Origin: an uncultured Granulosicoccus sp.
Lineage (GTDB): Bacteria > Pseudomonadota > Gammaproteobacteria > Granulosicoccales > Granulosicoccaceae
Length of the DNA stretch: 64,000 bases
Assembly (NCBI GenBank): GCA_947495035.1
Contig: CANLXI010000012.1
Span: 62,001 to 126,000, forward strand
Direction of reading: 5' to 3'
Below the pieces are notes generated by a model that was not told where the DNA came from, searched no databases, and was given only the letters and a program-made list of their open reading frames with translations. Position numbers and translations under genes: made by a program. Positions 11,766-17,904 of the stretch are shown here, piece by piece (position 1 is the first letter of the stretch; each line of letters opens with the position of its first letter).

Positions 11766-12515
11766 TTAGGGACTAAGTGTACTGCCTCTCGATCGATATC
11801 TCGCCATCTGCTCGCGAACGGCAAAACTGCCTGCTTTTTCGGGCCTGGCACGTCGACCGGGATTGCTGAAACCCAACGCACGCTTCATCATAAGGGCATA
11901 TTCAAGCGTGCCAACAGCAGCGCTGTCACTCCACATGCCCTCTCGTTCGAGCGTTCCATGACACATTTGATCGTCTATCCAGCTCTCGCGCGCGATCAAC
12001 AGCTCCTTGGGCGAGTCGAACTTCAGTAAACGGCAGGCACTGTCCAGGTCGATTCGCGAACCTCGTCGGCGCGGATGTTTCGCTTCATGATAACCGCTGG
12101 CTGACCACTCTTCCGGATGCGACACTTCGCCGGCACGCACCATGTTCAGGTCGATGTAGGTCATGCAACGAGCCAGATGATTGTCTGTCTGGATGGCTGT
12201 TGCGTGGTACCGATCTTCCCAGAACGCCCCGGTGCGCCCCTGTCTTTTGTTGAATTCCTGCGCGGTCCGACCTGAAACCAGTTGCATCGCCGCCGGAATG
12301 GCGTTGTTGCCAGAGTCGTGCACCAGCAAATGGATATGGTTGGACGTCACGATGTAATTCAACACGCTCAGGCCGAAGCGACGTCTGGCCTGGTACAGCC
12401 AGTAAAGCCAGCGACGTCGATCCATCTGGAATTTCAGCAGAAATTCGCGTTGATGGCAGCGCTGCGTGATATGCCAGACTTGTCCGGCGATGAAATGGCG
12501 ATTGGCTCGCGGCAT
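11766..12515 (-). mobile_element. RAYT, REP-associated tyrosine transposase (Y1/HUH family), complete
   Basis: A protein of 249 residues of the IS200-like Y1 transposase fold in its single-copy REP-associated form. The HUH metal motif is H60-I-H62 in the segment SNHIHLLV; the catalytic tyrosine is probably Y120 in CMTYIDLN, in the typical RAYT context YIDLNMVRAGE. An FWEDRYHAT segment and a basic C terminus are also typical. The gene is intact. It is flanked by one inverted and three direct copies of a 23-nt repeat with palindromic core GGTC-C-GACC, the kind of substrate RAYTs act on. It lies 86 bases upstream of hrpA on the same strand. Confidence 0.9.
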
Positions 12516-12944: not shown

Positions 12945-13547
12945 TTAGCCGGTGACGCGGATGAGTTTGTAGCTGATGCCGTTGCGTTTGAGGCGTTCCT
13001 TGGCGATGCTGATGCGTTCCTGATCGAAGAACGGTCCGATGCGAACGCGATGTCCGATGACGCCGTTGTTGTCCTGTCGCGGGACGATCGTGGACTCCAG
13101 GCCAAGCAGCAACAGTGAGGCTCGGGTCTTCTCGGCATCGGCCTTCTGGCGGTAGTTGCCAGCCTGCAGAAAATAGGACTCGTGTCCGACGCTGTTGGCC
13201 GGGACCTCGGCATAGTTCTCCGACACCAGAGCACGCGCGGACAGGCTCTGCACACTGCCGGGCACCACTCGCGTCGCCGGTGGTACGGTGCGGCTTGGCG
13301 GCGGCACCACTTCGCGCACGGCTGCCTGCTGTTGCTCGATGGTCGACTCGGGCAACAGGGAATAGAACTGATAGCCAGTCACGCCCGCTTCGGACTGCAT
13401 CTCGGCGGCAGCCATGTCAGCCGCCGGCATGCCGACCGGCAAGCGTGACAGCAACACCACGAAGCCGAATACCAGCCCTACCAGCAAACTCAGCGCCAGC
13501 ACGCACAGGCGACTGCCATGCATTTCCGATTCTCGGCCACTTGCCAT
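12945..13547 (-). CDS. SPOR-domain protein (FtsN-like), cotranscribed with the argS-like gene
   Basis: A protein of 200 residues with one membrane anchor (about 13-35), a Pro/Ala-rich periplasmic linker and a C-terminal SPOR domain (about 122-198: SYFLQAGNYRQKADAEKTRA through RIGPFFDQERISIAKERL). SPOR domains bind denuded glycan strands at the division septum. A SPOR protein after argS is a common gammaproteobacterial arrangement; hslVU, which often follows, is absent and the RAYT element takes that place. The start is 3 bases after the argS-like stop. A second Met at codon 9 is also possible. Confidence 0.85.
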   Translation of the reverse strand: MASGRESEMHGSRLCVLALSLLVGLVFGFVVLLSRLPVGMPAADMAAAEMQSEAGVTGYQFYSLLPESTIEQQQAAVREVVPPPSRTVPPATRVVPGSVQSLSARALVSENYAEVPANSVGHESYFLQAGNYRQKADAEKTRASLLLLGLESTIVPRQDNNGVIGHRVRIGPFFDQERISIAKERLKRNGISYKLIRVTG

Positions 13548-13550
13548 CGA

Positions 13551-15023
13551 TCACATTACCTCAGGGGTCGATACACCAATCAGCGACAACCCGTTACCCA
13601 GTACCTGCCGTACGGCAAGCAGTAAACACACTCTTGCATGCCGCAGCTCGTCATCATCGACAAGTACTTTATGCGCGTTGTAATAACTGTGTAGACCATT
13701 TGCGAGATCCCGCAAGTATCTCGTGAGTTGATGAGGCTCACGAGCCAGAGCTGCCCGCTGGACCCGTTCAGGGAACATCGCCAACAAGCTCATGAGCTCG
13801 AACTCGGCCGTTTCACTCAGCCGGAACAGAGCTGCCAGACCGGCTTCCTGATCGAATGTCAACGCTCGCTGATTCAGTTGTCGCATGACGCTGCAGACGC
13901 GCGCATGGGCCATCTGGACATGATAGGCAGGGTTTTCGTTTGACTGGGACCTGGCCAGGTCAAGGTCGAAGTCGAACGGTTGCGAGTGCTTGCGCATGAC
14001 GTAGAGGAATCGCGCAGCGTCCTTGCCGACTTCATCACATAACTCGCGAAGAGTGACAATGGAATCACATGCTGTGGACAACGATACCGGCTCCCCGCCG
14101 CGAAACAGGTTCGCGAACCGCGTCAGCAGTATCTCGAATTTCTCCCGCGGATGACCCAGTGCCTGGCAGGCCGCGGACAGGCAAGCCGCCCGCTCATGCT
14201 GATCGGCACCGAAGACATACAGCACCTTGTCGACACCGCGTTCGAGCGTGTTGTCGATACAGGCGATATCAGAGGCGAAACAACTACCCTGCCCATTGCC
14301 CCATAGCAGCGCACGGTCCCTGTCATCACCGAATTCGCTCGACCGGAACCAGCGCACACCTTCCTTTTCATACAGCTGGCCCGATGCCTCCAGCCTGTCT
14401 ACCACACGCTGCAGGGCGTCGCCCAGGCTGCATTCGCTGACCCATTCAGCGTGGTGAACACCGAATTCGTTCAGCTCCTGTCTGATAGCAGTGGCGGCCG
14501 GACCATCCATCTGACACCCGGCATCAGTGAGGCGATATACGCGCCGCACCTCGAAACCGACCGCTTCCATCAGATCGGCAATGGTCGCCCCCAAGGCGAC
14601 AGGGCGGCCCTGACTCACAGGCAGCGGCCCTGCCGGGCAGGACGATACGCATTCCACCTGGACCCGCTGCCCTGCTCCCAGCTGGCTCCGACCGAATTGC
14701 CTGCCCTGGGACAGAACCGCAGGGACCACGGCTGCCTGAGCCTCGTCCGCCTGAAAGAAGTTGATGAACCCCGGGTCAGCAACAACCACGTCGCGAATGT
14801 CATCTGACACCGGCAATGCCTCGATCAATGCCCGGGCAATGTCACACGGCGCATGCCCGGTCGGCTTTGCCAGCATCATGGCCAGATTGGAAGCAAAGTC
14901 ACCGTGACCGGCATCGCGTGTGCGTGTCACCACGATCGATGGATTGACGTCTGAAGGAACCATACCAGTGGACTGCAAGGCAGCGAGAGCCACGGCCAGG
15001 TCCTGTTCCAATCGGTCTTTCAC
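13551..15023 (-). CDS. ArgRS-like protein lacking HIGH and KMSKR motifs (probable non-catalytic paralogue)
   Basis: A protein of 490 residues, clearly arginyl-tRNA synthetase in descent: the N-terminal domain has DAGHGDFASNLAMMLAKP and PGFINFF, and the C-terminal anticodon-binding domain has YLRDLANGLHSYYNAHKVLV and ends GVSTPEVM. The catalytic signatures are gone. The HIGH site in VSxNPTGPLHVGHGR reads VSSCPAGPLPVSQGR (residues 126-140), with both histidines lost. The KMSKR site reads SLSTA (314-318). GADHHG reads GADQHE. About 65-70 residues usually found after QMD (171-173) are missing, which explains the short length. The frame is intact and flanked by priA and the SPOR gene as a normal argS would be. 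A true ArgRS must be encoded elsewhere. Confidence 0.85.
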   Translation of the reverse strand: MKDRLEQDLAVALAALQSTGMVPSDVNPSIVVTRTRDAGHGDFASNLAMMLAKPTGHAPCDIARALIEALPVSDDIRDVVVADPGFINFFQADEAQAAVVPAVLSQGRQFGRSQLGAGQRVQVECVSSCPAGPLPVSQGRPVALGATIADLMEAVGFEVRRVYRLTDAGCQMDGPAATAIRQELNEFGVHHAEWVSECSLGDALQRVVDRLEASGQLYEKEGVRWFRSSEFGDDRDRALLWGNGQGSCFASDIACIDNTLERGVDKVLYVFGADQHERAACLSAACQALGHPREKFEILLTRFANLFRGGEPVSLSTACDSIVTLRELCDEVGKDAARFLYVMRKHSQPFDFDLDLARSQSNENPAYHVQMAHARVCSVMRQLNQRALTFDQEAGLAALFRLSETAEFELMSLLAMFPERVQRAALAREPHQLTRYLRDLANGLHSYYNAHKVLVDDDELRHARVCLLLAVRQVLGNGLSLIGVSTPEVM

Positions 15024-15179: not shown

Positions 15180-17366
15180 TCAGAACAGATCGACCGGGTC
15201 CACATCGATGGACCAGCGGCACTTGCGCGCACCGGGCAGCTGATCGATCTGTGTACACAGCCGCGCCAGGCTGTCATTGAGTACCGAGCGGCGATCCGAC
15301 TGCAGCAACAACTGTGCTCGATATCGCCCTCCCAGTCGTTCCATCGGGGCTGGCGCTGGCCCCATCACTTCCAGGCGCCCAGCCCTGCTTGCCAGCAAGA
15401 CCTCTGAGACCTGCTGCAGAAAGGCATGCGCTTCCTGCCCGGCACTGGCTTCGGCACGCACCAGTGCCATGAAGGAGAATGGCGGCAGATCAGCCAGCCG
15501 CCGGTCAGCCATGGCAATATCGGCAAAGGCTCCATAGCCCTCCCTGACCAGAGTCTGCAGCATCGGATTATCGGGATTGCGTGTCTGTATCAGAACCGTG
15601 CCCTGCCGCGTTTCCCGCCCGGCACGCCCGGCGACCTGCACGGTCAACTGTGCCATGTGCTCCAGCGATCGAAAATCGGTGCCGAACAGGCCACGATCGG
15701 CATCCAGGATGCACACCAGCGTCAGCTTCGGAAAATGATGCCCCTTGGCCAGCATCTGCGTACCGACCAGGATGCGCGCCTGTCCCGTGGTCGCCTTGTC
15801 AAGCTGCTTTTCCAGCGCCCCCTTGCGCCGCGTGCTGTCGCGGTCGATCCTGGCGATTTCCACATCGGGAAATTCTGCCTGCAGAGCATCCGTGATGCGC
15901 TCCGTGCCATAGCCGACCCGATCCAGCTCGGCAGAGCCGCAGCTGTCGCACACGGCGGGCAGCGGCCTTTCGGAACCGCAGTGATGACAGCGCAGGCGAT
16001 TCTGCCGCACGTGGACGGTCATGTGCGCATCGCAGCGCCGACAATCGGCCGCCGCACCACAATCATTGCACAACAACGTGGGCGCAAAACCCCGCCGGTT
16101 GATGAAGACCAGCGCCTGACCATCCTTGTCCAGATGATCGCGAATGGCATCCAGCAGCCGATCACTCATGCCTTCGATGAGCTTGCGCCTGCGGATGTCC
16201 AGCAGGTTCATGATCGGTGGAATGGCATTGCCAGCCCGCTGCGTCAGACGCAGTTCCCTGAATCGACCGGTCTTGACGTTGTTGATCGTCTCGAAAGAAG
16301 GGGTAGCAGTACCCAGCACAACCGGACATTGCCGGTCACGTGCCCGCATCAGAGCCAGGTCACGCGCGTGATAGCGAAAGCCATCCTGTTGCTTCAGCGA
16401 GCCATCGTGTTCCTCATCGATGATGATCAGCCCCAGCCTCGGCAAAGCCGCCAGAATCGACGAGCGGGTGCCGATGACGACATCGGCATGACCTTCAGCA
16501 GCGCACAACCAGTTCTGCAGTCGCTCGTTATCGTTGAGCCCCGAATGCAGGCTGACCAGACAGCCACTGATGCGCCGCTCGAAGCGGCTCATCAACTGCG
16601 GCGTCAGCGAGATTTCCGGCACCAGCACCAGCGATTGCAGACCTCGTTTCCCAGCCTCTTCGATACAGCGCAGATACACTTCCGTCTTGCCACTGCCGGT
16701 AACTCCGCGCAGCAGAAAACTGGTAAAACTGCCCAGCGTCTGTTGCACGGCCTGAACAGCGACGGCCTGCTCATCCGACAGCGCGGGACCGGTTTCAGCC
16801 GCATGATTGCGCGGCACTTCGATCGCGGTATCACAGGCCACCCAGCCACGCTCCAGTAAGGGTTCCATGGATTTGCGCCAACCGGGACTGATGGCTCGCA
16901 GCGCATCAACGGCAACCGGCCTGCCGTCGTGCTCGCGCAGATACTCCAGCAATCGTTGCTGAACGGGTGCCGCCCGTGACAGGCCGGACTCCGCTTCATG
17001 CGGAACCCAGCGGTAGTAGTCGCGTTCGGCAATCACCGCCTCGTGTCCCTTGCGCAGCAGCACCGGCAATGCCGAACCCAGCACCTCCCCCAGGGGATAG
17101 TGGTAATAGCGACTGGCCCATTGCAACAACTTGAGCAGATCTTCCGGCAGAACCGGCTTTTCATCATGCACCTTGTGCACGGCGCGCAGCTTCCCGGACG
17201 GTACGTCACTGTGCTCGATGGCAGCCACCACGACACCGATCACCTGTCGACGCCCGAAAGGAACTGTCACCCGCGTACCCGCAATGATCGGTGATGCTGC
17301 TTTCCAGCGGTAATCGAACACGCCGTAGACCGGTGACTTCACCGCCACTTGTACCAAGGGATTCAT
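15180..17366 (-). CDS. priA: PriA, primosomal replication-restart helicase
   Basis: A protein of 728 residues starting at the ATG at 17366 (MNPLVQVAVKSPVYG), the normal PriA N terminus; upstream in-frame codons have no family match. It has the 3' DNA-binding domain, Walker A GVTGSGKTEVYLR, the DEEH box (IIDEEHDGSLKQQ), and the paired zinc-binding cysteines (CNDCG, CRRC, CHHCG, CDSCG). Motifs VFINRRGFAP and QVAGRAGRE are present. PriA reloads the replisome at stalled forks. Its upstream region carries DnaA-box matches. Confidence 0.97.
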   Translation of the reverse strand: MNPLVQVAVKSPVYGVFDYRWKAASPIIAGTRVTVPFGRRQVIGVVVAAIEHSDVPSGKLRAVHKVHDEKPVLPEDLLKLLQWASRYYHYPLGEVLGSALPVLLRKGHEAVIAERDYYRWVPHEAESGLSRAAPVQQRLLEYLREHDGRPVAVDALRAISPGWRKSMEPLLERGWVACDTAIEVPRNHAAETGPALSDEQAVAVQAVQQTLGSFTSFLLRGVTGSGKTEVYLRCIEEAGKRGLQSLVLVPEISLTPQLMSRFERRISGCLVSLHSGLNDNERLQNWLCAAEGHADVVIGTRSSILAALPRLGLIIIDEEHDGSLKQQDGFRYHARDLALMRARDRQCPVVLGTATPSFETINNVKTGRFRELRLTQRAGNAIPPIMNLLDIRRRKLIEGMSDRLLDAIRDHLDKDGQALVFINRRGFAPTLLCNDCGAAADCRRCDAHMTVHVRQNRLRCHHCGSERPLPAVCDSCGSAELDRVGYGTERITDALQAEFPDVEIARIDRDSTRRKGALEKQLDKATTGQARILVGTQMLAKGHHFPKLTLVCILDADRGLFGTDFRSLEHMAQLTVQVAGRAGRETRQGTVLIQTRNPDNPMLQTLVREGYGAFADIAMADRRLADLPPFSFMALVRAEASAGQEAHAFLQQVSEVLLASRAGRLEVMGPAPAPMERLGGRYRAQLLLQSDRRSVLNDSLARLCTQIDQLPGARKCRWSIDVDPVDLF

Positions 17367-17904
17367 GCGCTTAGCAAAGTCTCTGAGGATATCGGTCGAG
17401 CGCAGACAGGCCTGCCGGGGCCCTGAGGTTAGCGTCAAAACAGGCGCACTTCAGTGCCGGAATACTCACACAGTGTCCACAAATCTGTGGATAACTATGT
17501 GGACAAGGTTTGAAAAACGGTGCCAACGTGACGCACAACCGGGATTCCGGAAATTGATCCCATATTGCGAAATTACAAAATTATTCTTATATTTCAATAG
17601 TTTATGAAAACTTCCGAAAGCTGAAAAGGAGCCAATACACGATTTTCCGACTTTCCACAAGCGATCTGGAGCATTGTGTATAAGCCCGGACGTATTTCCA
17701 GATCGTCAACCCCGAAACGCGACAAATTCCAGTCATTTAACCGTTACATGCGGGTCCGGAACAGCACAATCGCCGCCCCATCATCGAGCAGGAAATGCAC
17801 CGCGGACCGTGCAACACACGCCGACACACCGTTGGCACGCTTGTCCGTGGCGCAATCCTGTCTGCCTGAACGAACTTGCCAGACCGTGGTGGCGTTGCCG
17901 GGTA
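17367..17904. promoter_or_regulatory. AT-rich intergenic region with DnaA-box matches upstream of priA
   Basis: A 538-base gap without a gene. On the minus strand there are perfect DnaA boxes at 17486-17494 (TTATCCACA) and 17675-17683 (TTATACACA), a one-mismatch box at 17498-17506 (TTGTCCACA), and two-mismatch boxes on the plus strand at 17473-17481 and 17651-17659. Between them, 17570-17611 is 36 A/T of 42 bases, a sharp drop against the GC-rich surroundings. GATC sites occur at about 17555, 17663 and 17701. This could be a replication origin, a DnaA-binding control region for priA, or a DnaA-titrating site. The segment 17700-17904 shows nothing else. Confidence 0.6.

Follow-up and report, generated by a model that had tools for sequence, protein, structure and literature searches.

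The gene argS' (13551-15023, minus strand) in the 64,000-nucleotide stretch of DNA analysed here, which we call the window, encodes the orthologue of the ancestral-type arginyl-tRNA synthetase (ArgRS) of Granulosicoccus, and is dead as a synthetase judging by its sequence. We consider it probable that argS' is a displaced ancestral ArgRS that has been kept by selection as a tRNA(Arg)-binding pseudoenzyme. The evidence comes from the pattern of residues lost and kept, from the selection acting on related copies, and from a second synthetase, ArgRS-2, encoded elsewhere in the same genome.

An ArgRS orthologue that has lost its catalytic signatures

The window corresponds to G000:C12:62001-126000, where G000 is its own assembly (7.16 Mb in 159 contigs). 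The argS' frame starts with GTG and runs open over 490 codons with no internal stop, exactly at the position given by the first-pass annotation, and its homology to ArgRS extends, as claimed there, from the N to the C terminus. The N-terminal tRNA-binding domain Arg_tRNA_synt_N ('Add1', PF03485) covers residues 4-90 (14754-15014, minus strand, as are the other parts of the gene; 3e-19), and the DALR anticodon-binding domain (DALR_1, PF05746) covers residues 369-490 (13554-13919; 1.2e-31). The catalytic domain is incomplete, with a weak and partial PF00750 match (1.6e-10) and 94 residues missing when counted against the canonical relative G014, a larger gap than the 65-70 residues first estimated. 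This in-frame deletion lies after QMD, in a zone at 14484-14507 within which the exact junction is ambiguous (residues 173-180).

The class I signatures are also gone. HVGH and M(S/T)TR are present in all 21 canonical relatives, whereas the window protein reads PVSQ at the HIGH position (residues 135-138, 14610-14621) and LSTA, within SLSTA, at the position equivalent to KMSKS, which is MSTR in ArgRS (residues 314-318, 14070-14084). GADHHG, found in 19 of these relatives and replaced by GSDHHG in the other two, has become GADQHE (residues 272-277, 14193-14210). All three replacements had been read from the sequence alone and were recovered in the alignment. The protein scores 278.7 with the NCBIfam argS equivalog TIGR00456, above the cut-off of 261.65, and annotation pipelines could therefore name it a functional arginine--tRNA ligase.

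The gene stands in the expected priA-argS-SPOR context, with priA upstream (15180-17438, minus strand; the longest ORF, whose true start may be further in) and a SPOR-domain gene downstream (12945-13547, minus strand). We compared this locus in 27 genomes, 26 from Granulosicoccus and one (G028) from the same family. The SPOR gene lies directly 3' of argS in all 27, and in each of them priA precedes argS on the same strand, less than 500 nt away in 19 and 2.3-5.4 kb off in 8. At this locus three other genomes have copies that are likewise open but altered in other ways, which makes sequencing error, the artefact that might have explained the changes, unlikely. No tRNA genes were found near argS' or ArgRS-2 in the nine loci scanned, nor within the window. 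Further downstream of the SPOR gene, at 11766-12515 (minus strand), the window encodes a 249-aa protein with a Y1_Tnp (IS200-like) transposase domain, which adjoins a DEAD/HA2 helicase with DUF3418.

A second synthetase in five genomes of the genus

A true ArgRS had been predicted to lie elsewhere in the genome, and a profile search of G000 located it: PF00750 has two matches, argS' (23.7 bits) and a protein that we call ArgRS-2 (385.8 bits), encoded on contig C46. ArgRS-2 has 587 aa, keeps HVGH and all three ArgRS domains, and has as its best PDB match the E. coli ArgRS (4oby, 1.1e-161), whereas it shares about 23-26% identity with the genus's own ArgRS over long alignments. It is present in 5 of the 27 genus genomes (G000, G012, G023, G024 and G026), at 88.6-94.0% identity to the G000 copy. 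The ancestral-type ArgRS is the sole one in 21 genomes, and G010 (86% complete) has a relative of ArgRS-2 on C129 (59-60% identity), with no ancestral-type copy and no true priA match found in that partial assembly.

Contamination was considered as a source of ArgRS-2, G000 being listed with 6.89%, and was rejected, since the gene is found in four more genomes and its dS between G000 and G012 (0.72) and between G000 and G024 (0.70) is of the order of the priA values (0.79 and 1.10). In G023 both the ancestral-type copy and ArgRS-2 lie on a single 7.78-Mb contig, which excludes two binned organisms as the source of the gene pair.

In the priA tree G026 groups, with starred support, with G008 and G019, apart from the other four carriers of ArgRS-2, and the presence of the gene on this tree needs at least two changes. 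Between G023 and G026 the dS is 0.71 for ArgRS-2 vs 2.93 for priA; the dS of distant pairs with G026 was runaway or very large for priA, SPOR and argS in most rows, and from these pairs we used the G023-G026 priA value and the ArgRS-2 rows only. From these comparisons ArgRS-2 appears to move horizontally within Granulosicoccus. Its neighbouring genes are at most partly shared between genomes, and no mobile-element proteins were detected with Pfam among the seven G000 neighbours scanned. Within the trio formed by G000, G012 and G024, the ArgRS-2 dS (0.70-0.79) is similar to or slightly lower than that of priA (0.79-1.10), which is consistent with its presence in their common ancestor.

Double ArgRS is uncommon in a sample of 323 genomes of the class, evenly drawn and including the window's own. 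PF03485 has two matches in 4 genomes (G000, G036, G103 and G178), one in 304 and none in 15, a count in which dead copies without this domain are missed. G178 has two full-length copies. In G103 (7% contamination) the second copy is fragmented, its pieces lying at contig ends. G036, from another family, combines an intact argS with a remnant (G036:C60:2616-3316) whose N and C parts are in different frames, because either the gene is broken or the assembly is faulty.

Altered ancestral copies across the genus

Relatives with similar losses do exist, as altered copies at the same locus in other genomes of the genus. Among 27 argS loci there are four broken copies, all in genomes carrying ArgRS-2. 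In G026 the ancestral ArgRS is complete, with all motifs present, alongside ArgRS-2. The G023 copy keeps HVGH, GADHHG and MSTR and has one in-frame deletion of 92 residues; it may be newly broken, since the kept motifs and a branch omega at background (0.036-0.074) make the break look recent. The G012 copy is full length and reads NAGQ, GAEQHG and MSTD, and the G024 copy has four deletions by alignment, HGSQ and MTSP, with the GADHHG region gone. Altogether the trio and G023 have six deletions by alignment, with all frames still open, and two of the trio lineages have lost long catalytic segments in frame. The alignments were A1, with 41 of 79 loci and the window protein, and A2, with 34 of those and the window protein.

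Three residues are found in the trio and absent from all other alignment rows, S39G, I81V and H138Q. H138Q alters the last residue of HIGH and is the sole novel residue shared by the trio in the catalytic domain, encoded by CAG, CAA and CAG. It would represent an early loss in the trio's common ancestor, three parallel changes from His to Gln being a possible but less likely alternative. At positions where G024 is deleted, G000 and G012 have four more changes in common, one of them H369Q in GADHHG. Judging by the alignment, further catalytic residues were lost separately in each lineage. The internal topology of the trio is unsure (84/59 for G000 with G024), and both arrangements were fitted in the selection analysis. 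Common ancestry of the G000 and G023 deletions was rejected, as G012, which forms a starred clade with G000 and G024, is without the deletion, and the junctions differ.

The tRNA-binding domains are the better kept

In order to compare the domains, we took the 244 columns that are invariant in the 21 canonical relatives (29 in the N-terminal domain, 160 in the catalytic domain and 55 in the C-terminal domain). The window protein keeps 27 of the 29 in its N-terminal domain and 53 of the 55 in its DALR domain. Among the invariant positions still present, the N- and C-terminal domains together vs the catalytic domain keep 80/84 vs 94/135 in G000 (Fisher p 1.8e-6), 83/84 vs 125/160 in G012 (p 1.9e-6) and 79/84 vs 57/100 in G024 (p 3.2e-9). 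The trio thus keeps 94-99% in the tRNA-binding domains and 57-78% in the catalytic domain, and invariant residues are lost 6-18 times more frequently in the latter. This is the pattern anticipated by the first reading, in which the tRNA-facing domains were the best preserved. Two controls do not show it, the distant canonical G028 (75/84 vs 151/160, p 0.2) and the newly broken G023 (82/84 vs 131/131, p 0.15), and nearly all invariants were kept by canonical rows dropped singly (four tried). By segment, the two Rossmann halves, the insert and the KMSKS region have lost the most. Loss is light in the segment that leads from the KMSKS position to the DALR domain (residues 325-368, 13920-14051), usually named the stem-contact fold, where G000, G012 and G024 keep 20/24, 22/24 and 20/24 invariant residues, respectively.

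The AlphaFold2 model of the window protein, built with 41 relatives, has a pLDDT of 90.1 and a pTM of 0.88, and its first 20 PDB matches with Foldseek are all ArgRSs, among them 2zue and 1f7u, which are in complex with tRNA. Active ArgRSs abound in the input alignment, so a model that looks normal is to be expected and carries little information on its own. The model of the 422-residue G024 protein (pLDDT 84.5) is more telling: in the N- and C-terminal domains almost every block of ten residues is predicted with a value above 90, and 9 of the 10 blocks in residues 161-260 fall below 70.

Selection after the catalytic loss

Within the trio, PriA is 90-92% identical and the argS' product 63-71%. 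The pairwise omega of argS' is 0.24, 0.28 and 0.37 at dS 0.73-0.96, compared with 0.04-0.06 for priA and ArgRS-2 and 0.05-0.10 for SPOR, and omega = 1 is rejected for the argS' pairs (2dlnL 119, 80 and 51). Using a branch model (custom GY94-type, F3x4, 12 taxa, priA topology), the trio omega is 0.238 in the N-terminal, 0.339 in the catalytic and 0.174 in the C-terminal domain, against background values of 0.092, 0.047 and 0.053. In the same order, omega = 1 is rejected for the trio branches in each domain (2dlnL 42.5, 69.8 and 66.7), and so is equality with the background (2dlnL 12.0, 106.8 and 19.4), the trio values being 2.6, 7.2 and 3.3 times higher. For the branches that follow the shared loss, the dN/dS check suggested at the outset thus gave values under 1 in all domains, and in the trio argS' is relaxed in every domain and still clearly under purifying selection.

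The trio values become 0.237, 0.339 and 0.195 with the other topology and 0.247, 0.252 and 0.214 without G024, and the rejection of omega = 1 holds in both cases; the DALR domain stays at 0.17-0.21 with a background of 0.053-0.054. Given that the three values are near-equal once G024 is dropped, the difference in omega between domains rests largely on this copy, and for this reason we place the weight on the test of invariant residues, which does not depend on G024. The reading that purifying selection continued after the catalytic loss rests on H138Q being ancestral to the trio.

Retention or decay

The proposal that argS' is a pseudoenzyme and not a decaying gene is supported by omega values below 1 and by the better-kept N- and C-terminal domains, while the relaxation in all domains weighs against it. 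As the main rival reading, the copies could instead be in slow decay, having been redundant since ArgRS-2 arrived, broken recently and left with no selection now, so that the constraint seen would be a leftover from before the break. We regard this as unlikely, although several observations fit it: the raised omega in every domain, the G023 deletion with its background omega, and the remnant, split over two frames, that G036 has in addition to its intact argS. In addition, the priA-SPOR locus of six genomes of a sister genus (G027, G031, G032, G033, G034 and G035) has no ORF matching argS', and in three of these genomes other ORFs, of 91-280 aa, lie between priA and SPOR, so argS' can be absent from this locus. 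The other ArgRSs of these six genomes either belong to the ArgRS-2 type or are closer to it. G034 has, away from priA, an N-terminal argS stretch of 45% identity that is cut at a contig end (G034:C542:19996-20511), and this genome may therefore not lack argS altogether.

Against decay stands the His-to-Gln change, common to three species that are separated by dS 0.7-1.0, and so does the excess of invariant losses in the catalytic domain. The trio copies also have no stop codon in any of the three. In neutral simulations at 0.1 substitutions/site, the mean number of stops is 3.5 for G000, 4.2 for G012 and 2.9 for G024, and the probability of none is 0.0175, 0.0025 and 0.06, respectively; G000 had been picked for its open frame, and G012 and G024 had not. 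At 0.05 substitutions/site these probabilities are 0.17, 0.10 and 0.20, and the absence of stops would be unremarkable. A single neutral fraction of the trio branches across all domains is rejected, with a 2dlnL of just 8.86 (2 df, coarse grid).

The dead copy might also be a subunit that forms a complex with ArgRS-2, as a tRNA-binding or stability partner. This would agree with the confinement of the four broken copies to ArgRS-2 genomes, and partner-activating dead paralogues are reported in other families (PMC5201418, PMC3663545), but ArgRS-2 has all its own domains, and G010 (86% complete), G027, G032 and G035 have an ArgRS-2-type enzyme with no ancestral-type copy found, which leaves this idea improbable. 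We give even less credence to a frame that is kept solely for translational coupling to the SPOR gene. The SPOR ATG lies 3 nt past the argS' stop, with a Shine-Dalgarno-like GAGG inside the last argS' codons, and the argS-SPOR gap is 1-5 nt in 23 of the 27 genomes compared (25 nt in one, and an overlap in three with longest-ORF calls). Coupling, however, would not protect amino acids across the N-terminal and DALR domains, and the six sister-genus genomes have SPOR after priA and, in between, no ORF homologous to argS'; that SPOR does without argS' there speaks against coupling as the reason for the open frame. A working synthetase with unusual motifs is scarcely credible in spite of the score above the equivalog cut-off, given the loss of both class I signatures, GADHHG and 94 catalytic residues, and the presence of the normal-looking ArgRS-2.

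A possible course from synthetase to tRNA-binding protein

If argS' is a retained pseudoenzyme, as we favour, an E. coli-type ArgRS-2 would have spread horizontally and taken over charging from the ancestral Granulosicoccus ArgRS. The change from His to Gln in HIGH would then have arisen in the common ancestor of G000, G012 and G024, and their lineages would have gone on to lose more catalytic residues separately, two of them losing long segments in frame, with the N-terminal and DALR domains staying near canonical under purifying selection. The argS' protein would be unable to activate arginine and would still dock tRNA(Arg) through these two domains. It may hold or present this tRNA, as a buffer for the uncharged form, as a shield against nucleases or by passing it on to ArgRS-2, and among these roles we make no confident choice.

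A broader proposal, which we put forward tentatively and with some doubt, is that the mobile ArgRS-2 repeatedly retires the resident ArgRS, and that the retired enzyme becomes a dedicated tRNA(Arg)-holding factor, a buffer or shield. If true, the genus would hold snapshots of the course: both enzymes intact, a first break, a copy dead but folded, and a copy with its catalytic domain largely gone. The change from an essential synthetase to a non-charging RNA-binding protein is mostly known from old cases in which it is complete. In Granulosicoccus several stages of one such change seem to coexist, and the likely trigger (a replacement gained by horizontal transfer) and an early mutation common to the trio (His to Gln in HIGH) can be identified, which opens both the route taken and the new function to testing.

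Comparison with known systems

With the ancestral-type ArgRS (TIGR00456), argS' shares the orthologous position, the N-terminal and DALR domains and up to 69% identity to canonical relatives, but it is without HIGH, MSTR, GADHHG and 94 catalytic residues, and its genome has a second ArgRS. By name and length it is also similar to NrtL (NF045898, 'ArgS-related anticodon-binding protein'), a short ArgRS relative of 327 model positions, whose model partially matches the N- and C-terminal parts of the window protein (152 bits) and of the G024 copy (163.8 bits). These scores are far under the cut-off of 340 bits, the window protein scores better as an ordinary argS, and the model is matched below cut-off in all 14 control genomes too, and for these reasons we do not assign argS' to NrtL. 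A literature search for NrtL together with tRNA returned no paper.

Some of the proteins HisZ, SLIMP and ThrRS-L, which belong to other synthetase families, have lost catalysis. All three are tabulated as repurposed synthetase paralogues in Table 1 of PMC9437257, which has no row for ArgRS, and, as presented there, they are synthetase-derived proteins with roles beyond ordinary charging, a description that argS' may share. In a search of titles and abstract openings, with most subscription journals outside its coverage, no dead bacterial ArgRS was found. A repurposed synthetase relative is a known kind of protein, and an ArgRS whose displaced original is present in several stages is new within the literature so searched. 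Unlike in HisZ, SLIMP and ThrRS-L, it is here the displaced original, and not an extra copy, that has lost the catalytic motifs.
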